Assembly (NCBI RefSeq): GCF_025144145.1 | Contig: NZ_CP083546.1 | Location: 3,488,501-3,552,500 of the forward strand | Length of the DNA: 64,000 bases | Source: Leisingera sp. M658 | GTDB taxonomy: Bacteria; Pseudomonadota; Alphaproteobacteria; Rhodobacterales; Rhodobacteraceae | Direction of reading: 5' to 3' | Part shown: piece by piece, positions 34,012 to 49,410 of the stretch | Layout: each line of letters begins with the position of its first letter | Numbering within the stretch: the first letter of the stretch is position 1 | Notes under the pieces: model-generated | Told to the model about the DNA's origin: nothing | Seen by the model: the letters and a program-made list of their open reading frames with translations, nothing else | Database searches by the model: none | Program-made: the position numbers and the translations under genes

Positions 34012-34995
34012 CTAAAACGGCCGTTCCTGATGCGGTGATTTGCCGAAATACCGGCGGTAAACTTTGGCAAAATGGGTCTGGCTGTTGAACCCCGACGCCA
34101 GTGCCACATCGATGATCCGCATGTTGGTCTGCAACAGCAGGCTGCGCGCATAGTCCAGCCGCAGCCTTGTGTAATAGACCTTGGGTGTGGTCTGCAGGTA
34201 CTTGGAGAACAGCCGCTCCAGCTGGCGGACCGACAGGCCGACCAGATCGGAAATGCCGCCCGGTGTCAGTGGCTCCTCCAGGTTGCTGCGCATCAGGCTG
34301 AGCGCGGCCGCAAGTTTTTCATGCCGAACGCCAGTCCGGCCGTATTCGGAAACCGTCTGATCCTGATTGCCCCTGCGCGCCGAGGAACAGACCATCAGAT
34401 CCGCCGCACCCGTCGCCAAGGCCGCCCCGTGATGATCCGCGATCAGGTTCAGCATCATGTCGATGGTAGCGGTCCCGCCGGCACAGGTGATCAGCTTGCC
34501 CTCCATGGTAAACAGCGAATTCTTCACCTCCACGTCCGGATGCGCCTCGGCAAGAACCGCCCGCAGCGCCCAGTGGGCCGAGACCTGGCGCCCTGCCAGC
34601 AGTCCGGAGCGCGCCAGCGCCAGCACACCGCCGCCCAGCGCACCCAGAGCTGCGCCCATGCGTTGCGCTTTGCGCAACCAGCCCAGCACCTTAAGCGATA
34701 TCCCCGGCTCCTGCCCCTGACCGCCGCAAACAAAGATCATATCGCCGCGCACCAGATCCGGCAGGCCGCCGTCCACCGCCACGCCAAGCCCGTTAGGGGC
34801 GGTGACGGACAGGCCGTCTTCGCTGACCACGCGCCAGTCATAGCGCGCAGTTCCATCATGCTGGTTTGCTGCCTCCAGCGCCGCCACCGCACTGGACAGG
34901 TCCAGCGGCGAGAAGGTGGGCAGCAGCAGGAAGATGCAGCGGCAGGCCGGAGCGGCCCCGGCCGCTTCGGGGAGCGTCCGCATGGGTTTGGTCAT
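34012..34995 (-). CDS. GlxA family AraC-type transcriptional regulator
   Basis: Regulator of 327 residues with an N-terminal DJ-1/PfpI-like domain (about 15-200; MIFVCGGQG and GVLALARSGLLAGRQVSAHW) and a C-terminal AraC double helix-turn-helix (about 225-325; ISDLVGLSVRQLERLF, IIDVALASGFNSQTHFAKVYRRYFG). This architecture includes GbdR, CdhR and SouR, which sense glycine betaine, carnitine and sarcosine. It follows the flavoprotein gene by 22 bp, so it probably controls its own operon and a methylated-amine substrate. The ATG at 34995 follows a GGGGAGCGGAG stretch; the frame is open further upstream but there overlaps the flavoprotein gene. Confidence 0.9.
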   Translation of the reverse strand: MTKPMRTLPEAAGAAPACRCIFLLLPTFSPLDLSSAVAALEAANQHDGTARYDWRVVSEDGLSVTAPNGLGVAVDGGLPDLVRGDMIFVCGGQGQEPGISLKVLGWLRKAQRMGAALGALGGGVLALARSGLLAGRQVSAHWALRAVLAEAHPDVEVKNSLFTMEGKLITCAGGTATIDMMLNLIADHHGAALATGAADLMVCSSARRGNQDQTVSEYGRTGVRHEKLAAALSLMRSNLEEPLTPGGISDLVGLSVRQLERLFSKYLQTTPKVYYTRLRLDYARSLLLQTNMRIIDVALASGFNSQTHFAKVYRRYFGKSPHQERPF

Positions 34996-37567: not shown

Positions 37568-39088
37568 TTAGTACCAGGCGTCCGGAATTTCTTCCTTGCG
37601 GCGGGCGACATAGGCGGCCAATTCTTCCTTCACCGCCTCATCCATCGGCGGCGCGACATACTCGTGCAGCATCTGGTTCCAGCGCTCATAGGCGCGCTGG
37701 CGCATGTCCTTGCAGCCGCCCTCCTCCCAGCTTTCGACATTTTCGCTGTCGCTCAGCTTGGGCTCATAAAACGCGGTCTGGTAATTACGCATGGTGTGAC
37801 CCGATCCCAGGAAATGCCCGCCAGGCTCCACCTCAGCGTAAGCATCGCGCGCCATAGCCTCGTCGCTGGTGTCCAGCCCCTGGCTCAGCACCTTCTGGTA
37901 GGACCCCAGCCGGTCGGCATCCATGATCAGCTTCTCAAACCCGGTGCACAGGCCGCCTTCCATCCAACCGGCAGAATGCAGGACAAAATTCGCACCCGCC
38001 AGCATGGTCGAATGCATCGAGTCGGCACTTTCATAGGCCGCCTGCGCGTCCTCGATCTTGGACGCGGTCAGCGACCCGCCGCAGCGCAGCGGCAGGCCTG
38101 CGCGGCGGGCCAGCTGACCAATGGCATAGTTCGACACCACCGGCTCCGGCATCCCAAATGTCGGCGCGCCGGACTTCAGCGACATCGACGACAGGAAGTT
38201 GCCCAGCACAAACGGCGCACCCGGGCGCACCAGCTGGGTGAAGGCGCAGACCATCATCGCCTCGGCCATCGCCTGCGCCACAGAGGCCGCGGTGGACACC
38301 GGCCCCATCGCACCGGTCAGGATGAACGGCACAACGATCATCCCCTGTCCGCGGGCGGAATAGGTGCGCACGGCCTCGGTTACCACCTTGTCCACCAGCA
38401 AGGGTGAGTTGGTGTTCACATTGCCCATGATCACGCAGTTGTTGTCCATGACCTCTTTGCCAAAGACAATTTCGGCCATATCGACACTGTCCTGCGCGCG
38501 GGACATTTCGGTGATCGCACCCAAATGCGGTTTGTCGCTGAGGGTCATATGGGCAAACAGCATGTCGAAATGGCGCTTGGAGACCGGCACATCGCAAGGC
38601 TCGCAGATGACAAAACCGCCGTGGTGCAGGTTCGGATGCATATAGGTGAGCTGCACCAGCTTCTCGAAACTCTCCATGTCGCCATAGCGGCGGCCGCCCT
38701 TCAGATCGCGCACAAACGGAGCGCCATAGATCGGGGCAAAAACCTGATTATTGCCGCCGATGGTCACAGAGCGTTCCCGGTTGCGGGCCAGCTGGGTGAA
38801 TTCCCGCGGGGCCTTGGCACACAGGGAGCGGATCCACTGCGCATCCGCCCGCACGATGTCGCCATCAATTCGCGCGCCGGCTTCTTTCCAGATCTTCAGC
38901 GCTTCGGGATCATCGCGAAAGGCAATGCCGACATCTTCAAAGATCCAGTCCACCTGGGCCTCGATCTTGGTCAGTTTTTCCTCATCCAGCACATCGTAAA
39001 ACGGCAGTGTGCGCTGGATAAATGGCGATGCAGGGGCACCCGCCGGGGCGGTGTTTCGATCGCGGGATGCGCGGGCGCGTCGGGCCAT
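37568..39088 (-). CDS. MttB-like trimethylamine methyltransferase family protein (non-pyrrolysine)
   Basis: 506-residue member of the MttB family. True trimethylamine methyltransferases contain pyrrolysine at an in-frame TAG; this frame has no internal TAG, so it belongs to the non-Pyl branch, which includes the glycine betaine:corrinoid methyltransferase MtgB. Family segments include GAPFVRDLKGGRRYG, NVNTNSPLLVDK and GGHFLGSGHTMRNYQ. No corrinoid protein or corrinoid-reactivating enzyme is encoded nearby, so the methyl acceptor is unknown. It is the first gene of the operon with the GcvT flavoprotein, 75 bp downstream, and is divergent from a LysR gene. Confidence 0.9.
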   Translation of the reverse strand: MARRARASRDRNTAPAGAPASPFIQRTLPFYDVLDEEKLTKIEAQVDWIFEDVGIAFRDDPEALKIWKEAGARIDGDIVRADAQWIRSLCAKAPREFTQLARNRERSVTIGGNNQVFAPIYGAPFVRDLKGGRRYGDMESFEKLVQLTYMHPNLHHGGFVICEPCDVPVSKRHFDMLFAHMTLSDKPHLGAITEMSRAQDSVDMAEIVFGKEVMDNNCVIMGNVNTNSPLLVDKVVTEAVRTYSARGQGMIVVPFILTGAMGPVSTAASVAQAMAEAMMVCAFTQLVRPGAPFVLGNFLSSMSLKSGAPTFGMPEPVVSNYAIGQLARRAGLPLRCGGSLTASKIEDAQAAYESADSMHSTMLAGANFVLHSAGWMEGGLCTGFEKLIMDADRLGSYQKVLSQGLDTSDEAMARDAYAEVEPGGHFLGSGHTMRNYQTAFYEPKLSDSENVESWEEGGCKDMRQRAYERWNQMLHEYVAPPMDEAVKEELAAYVARRKEEIPDAWY

Positions 39089-39146: not shown

Positions 39147-39182
39147 GGTTGAAAAATCTGATCGTTTGGATAATTGACAGTT

Positions 39183-40097
39183 ATGCAAGAACTCTGGAAG
39201 CTCCTCACCAGCCCCCGTCACCTGATTGTTTTTGAGGCCGCTGCCCGGCACGGCTCCTTTACCCGTGCGGCGGAGGAGCTGAACGTGCAGCAACCTGCTG
39301 TCAGTGCGGCCATAAAGCAGATGGAGGCGTCGTTAGGTGTTATTTTATTCCGCCGCGGCCACCGCAAAGTGGAGCTGACCGGGGCTGGAATGAGGCTGTA
39401 CACCGATGTGTCCAAGGCTTTAGAGGACATCCTGTCCTCTGCTAAAGCGGTACGCCAGTTCGGACGCAATGACCATGTCACGCTCAATTGCTCCTCGGCT
39501 TTTGCATATTACTGGGTGATGCCACGACTGCCCCGGCTGCATGATGCGCATCCCGATATCGACCTGCGCCTGCAAAGCTCGGACCGGGAGCCGGATATCA
39601 ATACCGAAGGCATCTCGCTGGCGGTGCGGCGCGGGCACGGCAACTGGCCGGACTGCCATTCCGCCCTGATCGCGCCCGAGGTGATCTATCCGGTGGCCAG
39701 CCCGCGGGTGATGGCCTCGGCCGTCAACCTGGCGACAGTGCCGAACCTGCTGCACGAGCGGCTGATACATCTGGAGGAACCGATCCGCGAGCGCCCCAGC
39801 TGGCAGCAGTGGTTTGCCCATTTCGGAGTTACAGGCCCGCTGCCCGCGGCGGGTCTGCGGCTCAACGATTACGCGCTGGTACTGCAGGCGGCAATTGCCG
39901 GCGAAGGCTTTGCCTTCGGCTGGCAGCACGTGACGCAACCGCTGATCAAACAGGGACTGCTGGCCGCACGCAAGAACTGGTCCTGGACCACCGGCGCCGG
40001 GTTTTACCTGGTGTGGTCCAAGACCCAGGATCTGGTTCCCAATGCCGAACTGGTGCGGCAGTGGCTCTTGGAAATGGCCCAGCCCGGCGCCGCGTGA
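39183..40097 (+). CDS. LysR-type regulator, GcvA-like
   Basis: 304-residue LTTR with an N-terminal winged HTH (about 8-66; SFTRAAEELNVQQPAVSAAIKQME) and a periplasmic-binding-like effector domain. Divergent orientation 94 bp from the MttB-like operon points to its control, in addition to the GlxA regulator. The first frame codon is a TTG at 39174, but the ATG at 39183 fits the HTH spacing better. It resembles the GcvA group, which often sits beside amine or glycine metabolism genes. Confidence 0.88.
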   Translation: MQELWKLLTSPRHLIVFEAAARHGSFTRAAEELNVQQPAVSAAIKQMEASLGVILFRRGHRKVELTGAGMRLYTDVSKALEDILSSAKAVRQFGRNDHVTLNCSSAFAYYWVMPRLPRLHDAHPDIDLRLQSSDREPDINTEGISLAVRRGHGNWPDCHSALIAPEVIYPVASPRVMASAVNLATVPNLLHERLIHLEEPIRERPSWQQWFAHFGVTGPLPAAGLRLNDYALVLQAAIAGEGFAFGWQHVTQPLIKQGLLAARKNWSWTTGAGFYLVWSKTQDLVPNAELVRQWLLEMAQPGAA

Positions 40098-40098
40098 C

Positions 40099-40962
40099 TT
40101 ATGCGATCCCGGAGGGGTCCTTGGCCCGCTGCATCGAGGTCTTGCGGGTCACATACAGCCGCCGCACAAAGGCAAGGATAAACAGCGCGGTCAGGATCAG
40201 CACAATGGTCGGCGCCGGCGCGCTATCGAGGAAGAAGCTGGCATAGGTCCCCGCCAGCATCGAAAACATGCAGATCAGAACCGAAACCCACAGCATAGTG
40301 CTGAACTTGCGCACCACCAGAAAGGCGATGGCCCCCGGCGCAATCAGCAGCCCGATGGCCAGGATCAGCCCCGCCGCCGACAGGGTCGCCACAATCGTCA
40401 GCGACAAGGCCGCCAGCAGCCCATAGTGCAGCACCGTGACCGGCAGCCCGGACGCCTGCGCCTGTGCCGGGTCAAAACTGTGCAGCAGCAGATCTTTCCA
40501 CTTCAAGACAAGCGCCACACCGACCACCAGGGAAATAATGCCCGCCGTCAGCAGCTCGTGCCCCTCAACCCCCAGCATGTTGCCGAACAGGATGTGATCC
40601 AGATGGGCGTTGGTCTCAACCGAGACATAGAGCACGATGCCAAGGCCGAACATGCCCGAGAACACCACCCCCATCACCGTGTCCTGCTTGACCCGGCTGT
40701 TGCCCGACAAATAGCCGGTGGCAACCGCGCAGAGCATACCCGCAGCAAAAGCGCCAAGGATCAGCGGCAGCCCCACGATATAGGCCAGCACGATTCCGGG
40801 CAGCACCGCATGGCTGACCGCGTCACCCATCAGCGCCCAGCCCTTCATCACCAGGAAGCAGGACAGCAGCGCGGTCGGGATGGACACGATCAGCGAGATC
40901 AGAAAGGCGTTCTGCATGAACGCAAACTGGAACGGCATCAAAAGCGTATCAAGGTCCATCAC
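40099..40962 (-). CDS. sitD: Metal ABC transporter permease (SitD/MntD type)
   Basis: Inner-membrane ABC-3 family permease of 287 residues with about eight or nine membrane segments, including FLVMKGWALMGDAVSHAVLPG, the conserved segment near the N-terminus of the family. It overlaps the upstream permease by ATGA. Two different permeases in one operon are typical of Sit/Yfe systems. Convergent with the lysR gene, 1 bp apart. Confidence 0.92.
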   Translation of the reverse strand: MMDLDTLLMPFQFAFMQNAFLISLIVSIPTALLSCFLVMKGWALMGDAVSHAVLPGIVLAYIVGLPLILGAFAAGMLCAVATGYLSGNSRVKQDTVMGVVFSGMFGLGIVLYVSVETNAHLDHILFGNMLGVEGHELLTAGIISLVVGVALVLKWKDLLLHSFDPAQAQASGLPVTVLHYGLLAALSLTIVATLSAAGLILAIGLLIAPGAIAFLVVRKFSTMLWVSVLICMFSMLAGTYASFFLDSAPAPTIVLILTALFILAFVRRLYVTRKTSMQRAKDPSGIA

Positions 40963-41840
40963 GCAGCTCCTTCTTGTGCGGCGGGGCCGCGTTTAAGTGC
41001 TTCGCGCGCCTTGCGTTTTGCCGCCAGCAACCCATGTTTCGGAGCAAAGACAAAGACCGCCAGGAAGATCAGCGTTTGCAGTGTCACGATGATGCCGCCG
41101 GTGGCGCCGTCCAGAAAGTAGCTGGCATAGGCGCCGAAGAAACTGGTGAGCGCACCGATCAGCACCGAAATCATGATCAGCCGCGGGAAACGGTCGCACA
41201 GCAGATAGGCCGTGGCCCCCGGCGTTACCACCATCGCAATCACCAGAAACGCCCCCACGGTCTGCATCGCCGCCACAACCGAGGCCGACAGCAGCACAAA
41301 AAACACTGCCTTCAGCAGCCCGGGCCTGAGGCCGATGGTGCGGGCGTGGTTTTCGTCAAAGAAGGTGACCATCAGGTCTTTCCACTTGGCCAGCAGCACT
41401 GCCAGCGAGACAAAGCCGATGATTGCAAGTTGAGCCGTGTCCTCGGGCGTGATCGCCAGGATGTTGCCCATGGTGATGGTCTGGACTGACACTGACATCG
41501 GGCTGATCGAGACGATGAACAACCCAAGCCCGAAAAAGGAGGTGAAGATCAGCCCGATGATCACATCCACCTTAAGGCCGGATCGTTCCGACAAAAACAG
41601 CATCGCCCCCGCCGCCAGCCCGCCGGCAATAAACGCGCCCAGCGCAAACGGCAGGCCCAGAATATAGGCCCCTGCCACCCCCGGCACCACCGAATGGGAC
41701 AGCGCGTCGCCGATCAGCGACCAGCCCTTGAGCATCAGATAAGCCGACAGGAAGGCGCAGACGCCGCCCACCAGGGAAGAGACCCACATCGCATTGGTCA
41801 TATAGCCATAGGAGAACGGCTCCAGCAGGTATTCCATCAC
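40959..41840 (-). CDS. sitC: Metal ABC transporter permease (SitC/MntB type)
   Basis: ABC-3 family permease of 293 residues with [21 protein letters not shown] near the N-terminus and about eight membrane helices. It pairs with SitD to form the channel. Its start overlaps the ATPase gene stop by ATGA and its stop overlaps sitD. The C-terminal tail is basic and cytoplasmic. Confidence 0.92.
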
Positions 41841-42754
41841 GGCTTGCCCCCGCCTTCAGCCTTGCCCTCGCTGGTCTGGGTCTTTTCGCCGTATTGGACA
41901 AAGGGCCGCTCGTCGTCGGTCAGGATGGTGACCTCGCGGGTGTCGCCGTCATCATGCAGCGCATCGCCCCCCAGGGTGAAATGGCGCAATACCCCGCCAA
42001 AGGCATGTTCCAGGTTGGCGCGGGTAAAGGTGGTCTCGGTCGGACCGAACCCCAGCACGGTGCCCTTGACCAGCACGGTTCGGTCGCAGAATTCCGGCAC
42101 GCTGCCCAGATTGTGGGTGGAAACCAGCATCACCCGGCCCTCGGCACGCAGCTCGCGCAGCAGGGCGATGATCTGCTCCTCGGTCTTCACGTCCACGCCG
42201 GTAAAAGGTTCGTCCAGCAGGATCACCTGCCCGTCCTGTGCCAGGGCGCGGGCCAGGAACACCCGTTTGCGCTGGCCGCCGGACAGCTCGCCGATCTGGC
42301 GGTGGCGGAAGTCCTGCATGTTGACCCGGCGCAGTGCCTCATCCACCGCCTCGTGATCCGCCGCCTTGGGCCGGCGCAGAAATCCCATGTGGCCGTAACG
42401 CCCCATCATCACCACATCCTCGACCAGCACCGGAAAGGCCCAGTCGACCTCCTCGGATTGCGGCACATAGGCAACCAGATTCTTGCGCAGTGCCTCCTTG
42501 ACGGTCAGGCCGAGGATGCGGATTTCACCCTGTGCGGCCGGCACAAACCCCATGATCGCCTTGAAGAGGGTCGATTTGCCTGCCCCGTTCACACCGACCA
42601 GCGCCGCAACGGTGCCGCGGGGAATGGAAAAGCTGGCATTCCACAGCGCCGTGTGGCCATTGCGGTAGGTAACGGTGACATCTTTTGCGGCGATCCCGTC
42701 ATCTGCGGGCGTGGCGCTGGTATTCATAATGTGGGTCTCACTGGCATCAAGCAT
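41837..42754 (-). CDS. sitB: Metal ABC transporter ATP-binding protein (SitB/MntA type)
   Basis: 305-residue ATPase with Walker [11 protein letters not shown]-loop [10 protein letters not shown], signature [15 protein letters not shown], Walker B VILLDEPF and the H-loop LVSTHNLG. Three in-frame ATGs are possible. I choose 42754, 8 nt after AGGACA; 42727 is the alternative, and the longest form begins within the intercistronic hairpin. A C-terminal extension of about 45 residues follows the ABC domain. Confidence 0.92.
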
Positions 42755-42806
42755 AGGGCTGTCCTGCAGAGTTACACACAGAAAATGTGCTTTGTGAAAT
42801 GAAACA

Positions 42807-42828
42807 CCCCGCAGCATGAACTGCGGGG
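42807..42828 (-). terminator. Intercistronic hairpin between sitA and sitB
   Basis: CCCCGCAG and CTGCGGGG pair perfectly across a 6-nt loop, followed on the minus strand by TGTTTCATTT. It may act as a partial terminator or 3'-end stabiliser that sets a higher level of the binding protein than of the membrane parts. Confidence 0.65.
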
Positions 42829-42851
42829 CGTAGGAATTTCCGTTGGAAGGC

Positions 42852-43754
42852 TCAGTTGGTGACCTCGGTCAGGCCACGTGCCACGGTTTCGGATGTGACC
42901 CTGAGCAGGTCCAGATAGGTGGGCACTGGACCGTCCGCTTCGCTGAGCGAGTCCACATACAACTCACCGCCATAGGCGACGCCGGTTTCACGGGCCACCT
43001 GTTCGGCCGGGGCGGTGTTGACGGTGCTTTCGCAGAACACCACAGGGATATCATTGGCGCGCACCCCGTCGATCACAGCGCGCACCTGCTGCGGAGTGCC
43101 AACCTGATCGGCGTTCATCGGCCACAAATACAGCTCTTTCATGCCGAAATCGCGGGCCAGGTAGCTAAAGGCCCCCTCGCAGGTCACCAGCCAGCGCTTA
43201 TCTTCCGGGATTTCGGCAATGGCGCGGCGCAGAGGCTCGATTGTGGCGCGCAAGCGGTCTTTGTATTCACCTGCGTTCTTGACATAGACCGCGGCGTTCT
43301 CCGGATCATGTTCGGCAAAGGCTTCGACGATGTTGTCAATATAAATCAGCGCGTTATCCAACCCCATCCAGGCATGCGGGTTGGCCTTGCCCTCATATGA
43401 GCCCGCTGCAATCGGGATTGGGTCAATGCCATCGGTCAGGGTCACCGATGGCACGTCTTCCATATTCGACAGGAACTGTTCGAACCAAAGCTCCAGGTTC
43501 ATCCCGTTCCACAGGATCAGGTCGGCATCGTGTGCCCGTACGATGTCACGCGGGGTCGGCTCATAACCGTGGATCTCGGCGCCCGGCTTGGTGACCGAAA
43601 CAACCTCGGCGGCATCCCCTGCCACATTTGCCGCCATATCGGCCAGCACGGTAAAGGTTGTGACAACCTTCATCTTGTCTTCAGCCATGGCAGCGCTGGC
43701 AGCAACAGCCGCAAATGCGGCGGCGGAAACTGTCTTGAGCAGGTTCGCGAACAT
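42852..43754 (-). CDS. sitA: Manganese/iron ABC transporter substrate-binding protein (SitA/MntC type)
   Basis: Periplasmic cluster A-I binding protein of 300 residues with a signal peptide (1-24, ending ASAAMA). Metal ligands can be read as His in EIHGYEPTP, His in NPHAWMG, Glu in TCEGAFSY and Asp in the late [11 protein letters not shown], the His-His-Glu-Asp set of Mn/Fe-binding members. The His-rich loop of ZnuA is absent, which argues against zinc. It heads sitABCD under a large Fur-family-like dyad. Confidence 0.92.
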
Positions 43755-44465: not shown

Positions 44466-47400
44466 ATGTGTGAGTATTGCGGTCAAGCCAATCACAGAAT
44501 TCCCGAAAGCACCGATAGCGGCGGCACAGGCTCAGGCGGCCAGTCTGCCGGCAGCAAGCCGACCTACACCGTCGATCAGGTGGCAGAGTATCTTTACAAG
44601 GGATATTGGCAGTCGACCGGCCGTACAGAGCGCTCCTTTGATGTGGAAACCGGCGGTCAGCTCACTGTTAACCTCAGCGGGTTGAATGGAACCGGCAAAG
44701 AAACCGCACGCAAGGCGCTGGAGAGCTGGACGGCGCTGAGCGGGATCGAGTTTGTCGAAACCACCGGCAGTGCCAAGATCACATTCGACGACAACCGGTC
44801 CGGCGCCTATGCCAGCTCCTCGGTCAGCAATGGCACCATTCTAAGCTCCAGCATCAACATCGACGATGCCTGGGCCCAATACGGCAATTACTACCTGCAA
44901 ACCTACATCCATGAGATCGGCCACGCCCTGGGTCTCGGCCACACCGGCAACTACAACGGCAGCGCCAGCTACGGCTCGGACGCGCATTTTGCCAACGACA
45001 GCTGGCAAATGTCGATCATGTCCTATTTCAGCCAGTCCGAGAACACCGCGGTGAATGCGTCCTTTGCCTATCTGGCAACCGCTCAGCTTGCTGATATCGC
45101 AGCGGTTCACCATCTCTATGGCACACCCGTGGACATCGAAACGGGCGACACCATTTACGGCGACGGGCAAACCACCGGCCGCTTCGGCATGGATTTGAAC
45201 GGCAGCTTCGGCGTGGCTGTTGTAGATAACGGCGGCATCGACCTGATCGACCTCAGCTCGCGCAGCTACAATCAGACGCTGAACCTGAATGAGGAAACAT
45301 TTTCCAGCCTCAACGGTAAGACCGGCAATTTCGCCATTGCCCGCGGCACCGTGATCGAAAACGCGATCACCGGCTCGGGTATCGACCATATCACAGGCAA
45401 CGCAGCAGCCAACCAGCTGGAGAGCGGCGCCGGCAATGACCAGATTGAGGGCGGTGACGGAAACGATACCTTGATCGGTGGCGATGGTGCTGACCTGCTT
45501 ACCGGCGGCAATGGTGCGGACCGGTTCGTATATACAAGCCTCAGCGAAGCCGGCGATTCCATTGCTGACTTTGATCTGGCAGCAGGCGACAGAATCAACA
45601 TCGCGCAGCTGCTCCAAGCAATCGGCTATGAAGGGGATGATCCGGCAGACGACGGCGTTGCAACGCTGCAGGCCGGCAGCGGCGGATCCTGGCTGAAGAT
45701 TTCACACGGCGGCAACAATGCCCTTTTGGTGTTTCTTGTCGGCGTGAACGAGGACGCCAGCCTGGCAGAGATCATCAACATCTCCGGCACCCCGGGGCCG
45801 GCACCGGACCCGACACCCGATCCTGAACCCACACCGGATCCTGATCCAACGCCCGATCCTGACCCGACACCTGACCCTGATCCGACACCTGATCCCGATC
45901 CAACTCCCGACCCGGACCCGACACCCGACCCGGACCCGACCCCAGGGACCATTGATAACGTGTATGTCTTCGATGACACCTTCATGACGCAATGGACCGT
46001 TCAGATCGGAACCGTCACTGACACAAATGGCGGCATTGATACCCTGGATCTTAGTGCCGTCACGCGGGGTTCCACGATCGACCTGGCAAGCGGGGCAACC
46101 GGTAAAATCGGCTCCAAAAGCCTGACAATCAGTGAAGGCACCGAGATCGAAAACGCCATCTTGGGCAGCGGCAATGACAAGGCCTATGGCAATGATCTTG
46201 CCAATTTGATCGAAGGCCGTGCCAGCAACGATCTTCTGGATGGGCGCGGCGGCAATGACACGCTGGACGGCGGCAGCGGCAACAACAAAATCTATGGCGG
46301 CCTGGGCGATGACAGCCTGACGGCCGAGGACGGTAACGACAAAATCTATGGCGGCGACGGGGACGACGCGATCCACGGCGGCAGCGGAAGAAACTTCCTG
46401 ACCGGTGAAGGAGGTGACGACACCCTGACAGCCGGCTCTGGCGCAGACCGGATTTATGGCGGCCTGGGCAATGACAATTTGGACGGCGGCGATGGCAAAA
46501 ACCGGATTGAAGGCGGCGCAGGGGACGACGCCATTACCGGTGGTATTGACAAAGACCAGCTGGCAGGCGGCGATGGCAACGATACGATGTCTGCCGGCGA
46601 TGGTGACAATAAGCTGGATGGCGGCGAGGGCGATGACAGCATGTCCGGCGGCAGCGGCAAAGATAAAATGTCAGGCGGCGATGGCGACGACACGATGTCT
46701 GCCGGCGATGGCGTCAACAAGCTGGATGGCGGCAGCGGTAATGATGTCCTCACCTCGGGCAGCGGCAAAGACAGGCTTATAGGCGGCGAAGGCGATGACA
46801 CGCTGTACGCCGGTGATGGCGACAACAAACTGGACGGCGGTGACGGCGATGACAGCTTGTCCGGCGGCAGCGAACAGGACAACATTAAAGGCGGTGAAGG
46901 GGACGACACGATATACGCCGGTGATGGCGACAACAAGCTGTTTGGCGGTGACGGGAACGACCAGATCACCAGTGGCGCAGGTACCGACAAACTGAAGGGC
47001 GGCTTGGGTGATGACACGCTTTCGGCTGGCGACGGCAGTAACAAGGTTGATGGCGGCGATGGCAATGACATGCTCAGCAGCGGCAGCGGCATCGACCGGC
47101 TGAAAGGCGGCAATGGCGATGACACGCTGTCGGGAGGTGCCGGAGATGACAAGCTGGATGGCGGCAAAGGGGATGACAGCCTAAGCGGCGGCAGCGGCAC
47201 TGATAAGATCAAAGGCGGGTCGGAAGACGATGAACTTTCGGGCGGTGCCGGAGATGACAAGCTGGATGGCGGGTCCGGCATGGACCGGATTGAAGGCGGC
47301 ACCGGGGCGGACCTCCTCAAAGGCGGTAAGGATGCCGATGTGTTTGTCTTCACCTCCGCTGAGGACGCAGGAGATACCATCAGCGATTTCAAGCTGAGCG

Positions 47401-47612
47401 ATGGGGACTTGCTCGACATCGACGGGCTGCTTCTGGATCTGGGCACCAATCTTGACGATGCCCTGTCCAGCGGCAGCCTGAGCCTTAGCGACAGCCGTGC
47501 AGTTTGGCTGGAGTATGATGCTGACGGTGCGGGCGGCGAAGACGCGTTTCAGATCGCCTATCTGAGAGGGGTCAGATCAAATACCGAGCTGACCGAAGAC
47601 TGGTTCATCTAA
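44466..47612 (+). CDS. Serralysin-like M10 metalloprotease with RTX repeats and type I secretion domains
   Basis: Secreted zinc protease of 1048 residues without a Sec signal. The N-terminal metzincin domain (about 35-225) has HEIGHALGLGH at 149-159 and the Met-turn MSIMSYF (Met185). A short RTX block and a first secretion-target-like module (about 350-430; ADRFVYTSLSEAGDSIADFD) follow. A Pro-Asp linker of DPTPDP units (about 446-495), some 25 nonapeptide GGxGxDxLx units (about 560-955) that bind calcium, and a second target module (ADVFVFTSAEDAGDTISDFK) end in a C-terminal TEDWFI tail. The N-terminus MCEYCGQANH has a CxxC. No T1SS genes adjoin it. Confidence 0.93.
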   Translation: MCEYCGQANHRIPESTDSGGTGSGGQSAGSKPTYTVDQVAEYLYKGYWQSTGRTERSFDVETGGQLTVNLSGLNGTGKETARKALESWTALSGIEFVETTGSAKITFDDNRSGAYASSSVSNGTILSSSINIDDAWAQYGNYYLQTYIHEIGHALGLGHTGNYNGSASYGSDAHFANDSWQMSIMSYFSQSENTAVNASFAYLATAQLADIAAVHHLYGTPVDIETGDTIYGDGQTTGRFGMDLNGSFGVAVVDNGGIDLIDLSSRSYNQTLNLNEETFSSLNGKTGNFAIARGTVIENAITGSGIDHITGNAAANQLESGAGNDQIEGGDGNDTLIGGDGADLLTGGNGADRFVYTSLSEAGDSIADFDLAAGDRINIAQLLQAIGYEGDDPADDGVATLQAGSGGSWLKISHGGNNALLVFLVGVNEDASLAEIINISGTPGPAPDPTPDPEPTPDPDPTPDPDPTPDPDPTPDPDPTPDPDPTPDPDPTPGTIDNVYVFDDTFMTQWTVQIGTVTDTNGGIDTLDLSAVTRGSTIDLASGATGKIGSKSLTISEGTEIENAILGSGNDKAYGNDLANLIEGRASNDLLDGRGGNDTLDGGSGNNKIYGGLGDDSLTAEDGNDKIYGGDGDDAIHGGSGRNFLTGEGGDDTLTAGSGADRIYGGLGNDNLDGGDGKNRIEGGAGDDAITGGIDKDQLAGGDGNDTMSAGDGDNKLDGGEGDDSMSGGSGKDKMSGGDGDDTMSAGDGVNKLDGGSGNDVLTSGSGKDRLIGGEGDDTLYAGDGDNKLDGGDGDDSLSGGSEQDNIKGGEGDDTIYAGDGDNKLFGGDGNDQITSGAGTDKLKGGLGDDTLSAGDGSNKVDGGDGNDMLSSGSGIDRLKGGNGDDTLSGGAGDDKLDGGKGDDSLSGGSGTDKIKGGSEDDELSGGAGDDKLDGGSGMDRIEGGTGADLLKGGKDADVFVFTSAEDAGDTISDFKLSDGDLLDIDGLLLDLGTNLDDALSSGSLSLSDSRAVWLEYDADGAGGEDAFQIAYLRGVRSNTELTEDWFI
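45805..45944 (+). repeat. Tandem 18-bp repeat encoding the DPTPDP linker
   Basis: About eight imperfect 18-bp units (CC-GAY-CCN-ACN type, for example ACACCCGATCCTGATCCG) encode Asp-Pro-Thr-Pro-Asp-Pro repeats inside the RTX protease. The copy number could vary by slippage. Confidence 0.8.
46170..47320 (+). repeat. RTX-encoding nonapeptide repeat array
   Basis: Recurrent 27-bp units of the type GGCGGCGATGGCGACGACAC encode the GGDGDDTxx calcium-binding nonapeptides. Neighbouring units alternate two flavours (GDDxMSAG and GDNKLDGG), a sign of block duplication. Confidence 0.8.
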
Positions 47613-47696: not shown

Positions 47697-49268
47697 TCAG
47701 GATTTCGGCTGCGGAAACCGGGCCACGCCGCGCGCGCCATCCGGGGTGATCGACATCAGCGACAGCGTGTGATCCATGTTTTTCATCCGGTGCCGCAGCA
47801 TCATCCGGGTCAGCCGGTTCAGTTCGCTTGCGTAGTCCGGCTGCCCGGCCACATTCTCCAGCTCCCCCTGCCCTTCGCTGTCAAACAGCATCGGCGGCAG
47901 ATCAGCGGCGAACTCAACCAGCGTGAACCGTTCGTCCCGCAAGATGCCCAGGCAGCTCTCGCTTGGCGATGTGCCCAGCGACTGCTGCCATAGCGTCGGC
48001 GTCAGCGGCTCCGAGAAATCCAGTTCCGAGAAGGAATACTGCCGCCAGTCCTGCGGATGCTCTCCCTGCAACAGCGGCAGCAGCGACCGCCCGTCCATCG
48101 CATTCGGGATCTCCTGACCGGCCCATTCCAAAACGGTCGGCGTCACGTCAATCGACTCGGTGATCTGGCTGAGACAGGCTCCGGCATTCGCCTCATTGCC
48201 CGGCATCCGGATGATCAGCGGCGTGTGATAGGCGGCGTCATAGACCGTCATTTTTCCCCAGGAATGCCGGTCGCCCAGCATCTCGCCATGGTCGGCGGTG
48301 ATCACCACCATCGTGTTGTCGTACTGGCCCGTGTCTTTAAGAAACTCGATCACACGGCCGACATGATGGTCCACCTCGCTCGCAAGCCCCAGATAAACCG
48401 CGCGCAGGGTGCGGATGTTATCATCTGTCGGCTCAAGATCCGGGAACCCTTCAACGAACCCTGCGATCGTGCTCTTGCGCAATGCGGGATCAAAGAACGG
48501 ATGCTGTTCGCACTCCGCATCCGGTGTCGCCAGCCGCTCGGGCAGCGGCAGCGAGGCAGGATCATACATGGTGTTATAGGGGGCTGGCGCCACCAGCGGC
48601 GGGTGCGGGCGGATATAGGTCAGATGCGCGAACCAGCTTTCCTTGTGGTAGGCGGTCATTTTGCCAAGGAAGGAATTGGTCAGAAACGCGGTGTCACTGT
48701 CTTCAGCGGCATAGAGCGCGGGATCGTTCAGCCCGGGCGCGCCGCCACTTGGCGACACCGGCTTGTAGACATCCCAATAGTTTTCGAACGCATAGCCCTG
48801 GTTCATCAGATGCGACTGCCACGGATAGGACATTTCCATCCGCATCTCGGTCATCTCGTGAAACCCGTTCATCGGGAATTCATAGGTTCTGAGCGCCGGA
48901 TCATTGGCATCAAATGCCCGCGGGTCCTGCGACGTATCAGTATAGCCGAACAGCATCGGCATATAGCCTGCCTTGCGCATTTCCGTCGCAATGTTCGGCG
49001 TGTCATGACGCAGCGGCGTGCCATTTCGGACCGAGCGATGGTTCATTGCGTATTGTCCGGTCAGGATTGAGGCCCGCGACGGCCCGCAAGGATTTGTGAC
49101 CGAGAAATGCCGTTTGAAGGACACCGCATCCTTCATGAAGGCACGGATGTTCGGCAGCTCCACATGTTCCGCCAAAGCGCCGAACACACAATCCGCGCGC
49201 AGCTGGTCGATGATGATGAACAGCACGTTCCGGTTTGCGGGACGTGTCTCGGGGCGGTTTGCAGGCAT
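47697..49268 (-). CDS. Sulfatase / phosphonate monoester hydrolase family protein
   Basis: Alkaline-phosphatase-superfamily hydrolase of 523 residues. Asp21 (IIIDQLRAD) opens the metal site; CGPSR (61-65), in NPCGPSRASILTGQ, is the formylglycine motif with Cys61 to be modified; VITADHGEMLGDRHSWGK supplies the Asp/His pair. No signal peptide, so a cytoplasmic enzyme, as in PMH-type and choline-sulfatase-type members. The ATG at 49268 follows AAGGA; the longer frame is Cys/Arg-rich and unlikely. It lies 142 bp after the racemase gene and may be separately transcribed. The substrate is unknown. Confidence 0.87.
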   Translation of the reverse strand: MPANRPETRPANRNVLFIIIDQLRADCVFGALAEHVELPNIRAFMKDAVSFKRHFSVTNPCGPSRASILTGQYAMNHRSVRNGTPLRHDTPNIATEMRKAGYMPMLFGYTDTSQDPRAFDANDPALRTYEFPMNGFHEMTEMRMEMSYPWQSHLMNQGYAFENYWDVYKPVSPSGGAPGLNDPALYAAEDSDTAFLTNSFLGKMTAYHKESWFAHLTYIRPHPPLVAPAPYNTMYDPASLPLPERLATPDAECEQHPFFDPALRKSTIAGFVEGFPDLEPTDDNIRTLRAVYLGLASEVDHHVGRVIEFLKDTGQYDNTMVVITADHGEMLGDRHSWGKMTVYDAAYHTPLIIRMPGNEANAGACLSQITESIDVTPTVLEWAGQEIPNAMDGRSLLPLLQGEHPQDWRQYSFSELDFSEPLTPTLWQQSLGTSPSESCLGILRDERFTLVEFAADLPPMLFDSEGQGELENVAGQPDYASELNRLTRMMLRHRMKNMDHTLSLMSITPDGARGVARFPQPKS

Positions 49269-49410
49269 CCAGGCATCCTTGCAGGCACAAGACAGATTTC
49301 GACTGGCAATCTGTCGCGATCTGCACAGGGATTTCAAGCACCGTTTACATCGCTCTGCAGGATGCAATCTGAAAAATTGTCAGCTGACAAATCCCGGACA
49401 ATTGTATCTA

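Follow-up and report, generated by a model that had tools for sequence, protein, structure and literature searches.

A conserved MttB-flavoprotein operon in Leisingera sp. M658 that most likely demethylates a betaine-type nutrient

Among marine bacteria, demethylation of glycine betaine through a corrinoid protein is described in Ruegeria pomeroyi, where mtgC and mtgD mutants lose both growth on glycine betaine and methionine synthesis (Mausz et al. 2025, PMC12478193). The MtgC/MtgD/MtgE/RamA/DUF1638 set is encoded in trans in R. pomeroyi and Phaeobacter inhibens, and in R. pomeroyi the RamA and DUF1638 proteins rise together with the scattered mtg genes (PMC12478193). Up to seven pfam06253 genes occur per genome, and the authors propose that the same corrinoid protein serves other methylated compounds (PMC12478193). 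A comparable arrangement is known from Eubacterium limosum, which has many MttB homologues, and whose non-pyrrolysine paralogues MtpB, MtcB and MtyB lie in separate clusters and use one common corrinoid protein and one methylcorrinoid:tetrahydrofolate methyltransferase; MtyB works with MtqC and MtqA, and levels of these two proteins also go up on carnitine and proline betaine (PMC8604678). This organism, however, is an anaerobic acetogen that passes methyl-tetrahydrofolate into acetogenesis, and no oxidative second step of the dimethylglycine dehydrogenase (DMGDH) type is described for it. A literature search on non-pyrrolysine MttB proteins in Rhodobacteraceae, or on MttB with DMGDH in Roseobacter, found nothing.

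Here we describe a locus of Leisingera sp. M658 in which a gene for an MttB-family protein is followed by one for a DMGDH-like flavoprotein (Table 1), within a stretch of 64,000 nucleotides (contig NZ_CP083546.1, positions 3,488,501 to 3,552,500) that is called the window below. The locus resembles the R. pomeroyi MtgB/MtgC/MtgD system in its PF06253 methyltransferase, in a single corrinoid protein, MtrH-like protein and RACo activase scattered in the genome, and in linked demethylase flavoproteins that feed tetrahydrofolate. It differs in that the window protein falls in a separate clade, with its own DMGDH-like gene and regulators.

Table 1. Genes and intergenic region of the MttB-flavoprotein locus, in window coordinates.
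Feature	Position	Strand	Basis and predicted role
Non-pyrrolysine MttB-family methyltransferase, 506 aa	37568..39088	-	PF06253 731 bits; predicted quaternary amine:corrinoid methyltransferase
DMGDH-like FAD/folate flavoprotein, 824 aa	35018..37492	-	DAO, FAO_M, GCV_T, GCV_T_C; predicted oxidative N-demethylase passing C1 to tetrahydrofolate
GlxA-type AraC regulator, GbdR-like	34012..34995	-	DJ-1/PfpI + HTH_18
Divergent LysR regulator, GcvA/choline-sulfate-regulator-like	39174..40097	+	LysR_substrate + HTH_1
85-bp divergent intergenic region	39089..39173		Gene layout

The PF06253 match of the MttB-family protein is full-length (model positions 2-500 of 500, cut-off 25 bits), and the trimethylamine methyltransferase model TIGR02369 gave 230 bits against a cut-off of 525. 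Leu340 aligns with Pyl334 (X334) of PDB 7XCL and the open reading frame (ORF) holds no in-frame stop. Judged by its sequence the product is a non-pyrrolysine member of the MttB superfamily, as had been claimed from the letters alone. The nearest solved structures are 4YYC from Sinorhizobium meliloti (542 bits) and two entries for MtgB, the methyltransferase for glycine betaine (2QNE and 9YCE). A moderately confident AlphaFold model (pLDDT 63.6), which served solely to confirm the fold, had 4YYC, 2QNE, 9YCE and 7XCL-7XCN as its top Foldseek matches, all consistent with an MttB/MtgB fold. The S. meliloti protein 4YYC, at about 47-49% identity, is the closest protein with a solved structure and has the same fold, but its gene adjoins that of a corrinoid protein and lies near bmt, which the window gene does not. 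The closest named orthologue, at 97%, is from L. aquimarina.

The earlier note described the methyltransferase as fused in one operon with the flavoprotein. The operon arrangement stands, the two genes being on the same strand and 75 bp apart, but they are separate genes and there is no literal fusion. The flavoprotein shares its domain architecture with dimethylglycine dehydrogenase (human 5L46, rat 4P9S) over the whole length, with DAO, FAO_M, GCV_T and GCV_T_C domains and the covalent-flavin motif region in place; phmmer against 5L46 gave 570 bits and aligned the WHAAG motif, whose histidine is presumably the covalent-flavin residue. It differs from these enzymes in being one of many such paralogues in its genome, several of which are similarly close to the human enzyme (e.g. 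L015, 566 bits by tblastn). The regulator gene that follows was listed as an ORF extending to 35178, and its likely start as read from the ORF sequence is MTKPMRT... at 34995, 22 bp past the flavoprotein stop. Its top NCBIfam match was GbdR (NF052371) at 286 bits, below the cut-off of 480, hence we call it GbdR-like and not GbdR. With this qualification the domain matches agree with the earlier description of the next genes as a folate-linked flavin demethylase and a GlxA regulator. The LysR regulator scored 249 bits against TIGR03418, below the cut-off, and the short region between it and the methyltransferase gene is the presumed common promoter/operator of the LysR gene and the operon.

Genes for a zinc/manganese-type ABC transporter (40099-43754) adjoin the LysR gene. 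The product of 47697-49367 is a phosphoric/sulfuric ester hydrolase that resembles PehA, its 466 bits falling short of the equivalog cut-off. The transporter is kept in its place only in Leisingera-type loci, and both were rejected as parts of the pathway on the ground that their linkage to the operon is confined to such loci. Between them a long ORF (44466-47612), as read from its sequence, combines an N-terminal protease region resembling serralysin with many calcium-binding repeats of RTX type.

The operon was surveyed in 80 named orthologous loci with flanks of up to 8 kb. Of the 71 loci that have at least 4 kb of sequence, 62 carry a DMGDH orthologue downstream of MttB and on its strand, and the divergent LysR gene is present in 66/79. 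The three-gene operon is conserved across many marine bacteria, and the association with the flavoprotein is kept, not lost, in relatives. Within the window genome, 6 of the 11 MttB genes lie no more than 6 kb from a GCV_T gene, where 0.6 would be expected, a count reached in 0/20,000 random placements. Together with the linkage across loci, this makes MttB plus a folate-linked demethylase a recurring theme and not a matter of chance, and bears out the pairing with an oxidative, folate-linked flavin demethylase that had been proposed.

The operon is enlarged in seven loci, mostly of Roseovarius type (L102, L104, L108, L109, L110, L087 and L114), where varying combinations of genes for a glycine C-acetyltransferase, a CysK-like PLP enzyme, a threonine 3-dehydrogenase, an OYE-type flavin oxidoreductase and a PEP-mutase-like protein are added.

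It had also been claimed that the methyltransferase has no corrinoid partner. This held for the surroundings of the gene, as no corrinoid, RamA-type or MtrH-type gene was found in the MttB neighbourhood, and no MtgC gene in the flanks of any of the 80 orthologous loci. It did not hold for the genome. Exactly one B12-binding_2 protein is encoded there (234 aa, PF02310 and PF02607 above cut-offs), nearest to the MtgC/MtbC models although below their cut-offs (NF047996 197 bits, TIGR02370 169 bits). Its gene lies ~1.9 Mb from the MttB operon, adjoins a DUF1638 gene and is ~2 kb from a homocysteine S-methyltransferase gene. One MtrH-like (MtgD) protein, over the cut-off of NF005719, and one RACo/RamA-like activase are encoded elsewhere on the chromosome, so that candidates for the corrinoid protein, the tetrahydrofolate methyltransferase and the reductive activase are all present and the genome holds the full trans-encoded set. 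The partner had appeared to be lacking because only the neighbourhood was looked at. Eleven PF06253 genes and 27 GCV_T matches are a large set of demethylases for a single genome to hold, and the eleven MttB paralogues most likely draw on the one MtgC-like corrinoid protein.

The operon most likely takes methyl groups off a betaine-type nutrient, by chemistry of a known type. We think it very probable that a quaternary amine is N-demethylated in two steps, the first methyl going to the common, trans-encoded MtgC and the next being removed oxidatively to folate. In the first step the MttB-family protein would take a methyl off the quaternary nitrogen and place it on the cob(I)alamin of the single MtgC-type corrinoid protein, from which MtgD would hand it to tetrahydrofolate, while RACo/RamA, with a DUF1638 protein whose function is inferred in the literature, would reactivate oxidised cobalamin. 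In the second step the DMGDH-like flavoprotein would oxidatively take a methyl off the tertiary amine, yielding methylene-tetrahydrofolate. The LysR and GlxA/GbdR-like regulators would respond to the substrate or the product.

Counting against transfer to MtgC is the lack of any corrinoid gene linked to the window clade in the 80 loci. The earlier note had the first methyl pass to a non-corrinoid acceptor, the flavoprotein taking the second, and the empty flanks agree with a methyltransferase that works independently of a corrinoid, as does one genome (G074) in which a related MttB occurs but no stand-alone corrinoid protein was found. We nevertheless hold this to be very unlikely, since the complete trans set is encoded in the window genome and close relatives cluster with a corrinoid gene. 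Relatives 49-54% identical to the window protein, from Paracoccus methylovorus, P. aminovorans and S. meliloti, directly adjoin a cluster of genes for a B12-binding protein, DUF1638, MetF, an MtrH-like protein and an ASKHA protein. Moreover, one trans-encoded corrinoid protein for several MttB paralogues has already been proposed in this group, and Ruegeria mutants have demonstrated the trans arrangement for glycine betaine (PMC12478193); a non-corrinoid acceptor is not supported.

An association of MttB genes with MtgC was also visible across the family, in a sample of 100 near-complete genomes, one per genus. MtgC was present in 95/100 genomes and a strong MttB-family match in 93/100, with the MttB family occurring in 92 of the 95 genomes with MtgC vs one of the five without (Fisher p about 4e-5, an optimistic value because the genomes are related). 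Thus four of the five genomes lacking MtgC have no MttB-family gene; in all five the B12-binding domain belongs to a long ORF (910-1293 aa), which in most cases is of MetH size. The earlier note had set against its own reading a corrinoid gene elsewhere in the genome that strictly co-occurs with the clade, and this is what we found, with MtgC present in 8/8 of the sampled genomes that have a window orthologue, a count that is weak alone because MtgC occurs in 95/100 family genomes. The sole exception to this association, G074, has a glycine-betaine-type MttB (C1:333949-335445) next to guaA, its only B12-binding ORF is MetH-sized and no stand-alone corrinoid protein was found in it; MtgC may be dispensable for this MttB, or part of the genome may be missing from the assembly. 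A further suggestion, that the window clade, with no corrinoid linkage in 80 loci and its own fixed residues near the pyrrolysine-equivalent position, hands its methyl to a non-corrinoid acceptor and would be the first cobalamin-independent MttB-family enzyme, strikes us as highly improbable, the relatives that adjoin a corrinoid gene and the four MtgC-less genomes without MttB counting against it.

Transfer to MtgC is compatible with either of two substrates, glycine betaine or a chiral betaine. In a phylogenetic tree, which left out R. pomeroyi SPO2108 and SPO2134, the window protein fell in a fully supported clade (100/100) with its orthologues and a protein from Paracoccus sp. TOH. A separate group holds 4YYC, the mtgC-linked Paracoccus proteins, an Azoarcus protein encoded near betAB and L011, a paralogue from the window genome itself. 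From its linkage to mtgC, bmt and betAB we infer this group to be glycine-betaine-type, and the window protein lies outside this MtgB clade, from which its own clade is set apart by 27 fixed differences, including position 341 beside Leu340.

That the operon is a second MtgB/DMGDH pair, with glycine betaine or one of its precursors as the substrate, is consistent with the GbdR-like regulator in the operon and with its immediate upstream neighbours in Paracoccus sp. TOH, which are genes for glycine cleavage, glyA and serine ammonia-lyase. TmpB produces glycine betaine, and an HD-domain protein, TmpB-like in L115, is encoded upstream of the window-type MttB in three gammaproteobacterial metagenome-assembled genomes (MAGs) (L115:2794-3414; L094:7167-7754; L105:5041-5628). 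On glycine betaine, R. pomeroyi also makes more of two pfam06253 proteins (PMC12478193). We nonetheless regard glycine betaine as rather unlikely, given the full separation of the window clade (100/100) from the clade linked to mtgC, bmt and betAB, and the presence in the genome of a glycine-betaine-type member, L011. A racemase-like gene found in some of the loci would also stay unexplained, because glycine betaine is achiral.

In the three gammaproteobacterial loci, cupin and GST genes come next and a metallophosphoesterase gene precedes in two; the HD protein of L115, the one compared with solved structures, scored 112 bits against TmpB (6NPA) and 93 bits against PhnZ.

The racemase-like gene, of the mandelate-racemase/muconate-lactonising type, occurs downstream of MttB in 14/80 loci (in 13 of the 14 between MttB and DMGDH) and also in Paracoccus sp. 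TOH. It hints at a chiral, possibly cyclic, amino-acid betaine as the substrate, e.g. of proline type, and a betaine of this type, with two N-methyls, would need exactly one MttB and one flavoprotein step. A Mesorhizobium plasmid carries a more distant MttB together with a racemase-like gene and a proline racemase gene, and in another Mesorhizobium an 81% identical racemase-like gene lies near genes for a Rieske dioxygenase and a VanB-type reductase; the first step may be open to either an MttB or a Rieske enzyme. A 59% relative adjoins Ldh-family and ornithine-cyclodeaminase-family genes, with genes for a B12-binding protein and DUF1638 nearby.

We put forward a chiral betaine tentatively, as a possibility that has a good deal against it. 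Most loci, the window operon among them, lack the racemase-like gene, the Roseovarius operons carry Kbl/Tdh instead, and the product of the inserted gene shares only 25-27% identity with HpbD, the proline-type betaine 2-epimerase. Its active site looks unusual for the superfamily, as in L050:9633-10805 and its relatives the KxK motif has E for its first Lys, and N and Y stand where 2OQH, the nearest structure, has D and H. Moreover, proline-type betaines would already be served in this genome by another MttB, one linked to HpbD. On contig C2 (L013:8763-11487) an MttB paralogue is followed by an enolase-superfamily gene with matches to two structures of HpbD type, 4E8G (E about 1e-166) and 2PMQ (E about 1e-150), and the pair may form a corrinoid route for proline-type betaines. 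It is this paralogue, and not the window protein, that is the HpbD-linked enzyme, hence that identity was rejected for the window protein. In L052, L070 and L122, close relatives of the L013 MttB (about 90% identical) do occur in the vicinity of the window-type module, which favours a link of the module with chiral betaines.

The operon, with its MttB, DMGDH-like flavoprotein, LysR and GlxA genes and at times one for a racemase-like enzyme, is a defined candidate, open to testing, for a betaine pathway not yet characterised that is found in Rhodobacterales, has a more distant form on a Mesorhizobium plasmid and is rearranged in some gammaproteobacterial MAGs. If transfer of the first methyl to the common MtgC is true, one B12 protein serves methionine synthesis and up to eleven methyl-donor enzymes in a marine bacterium, and B12 supply would control the use of many algal osmolytes, beyond glycine betaine.
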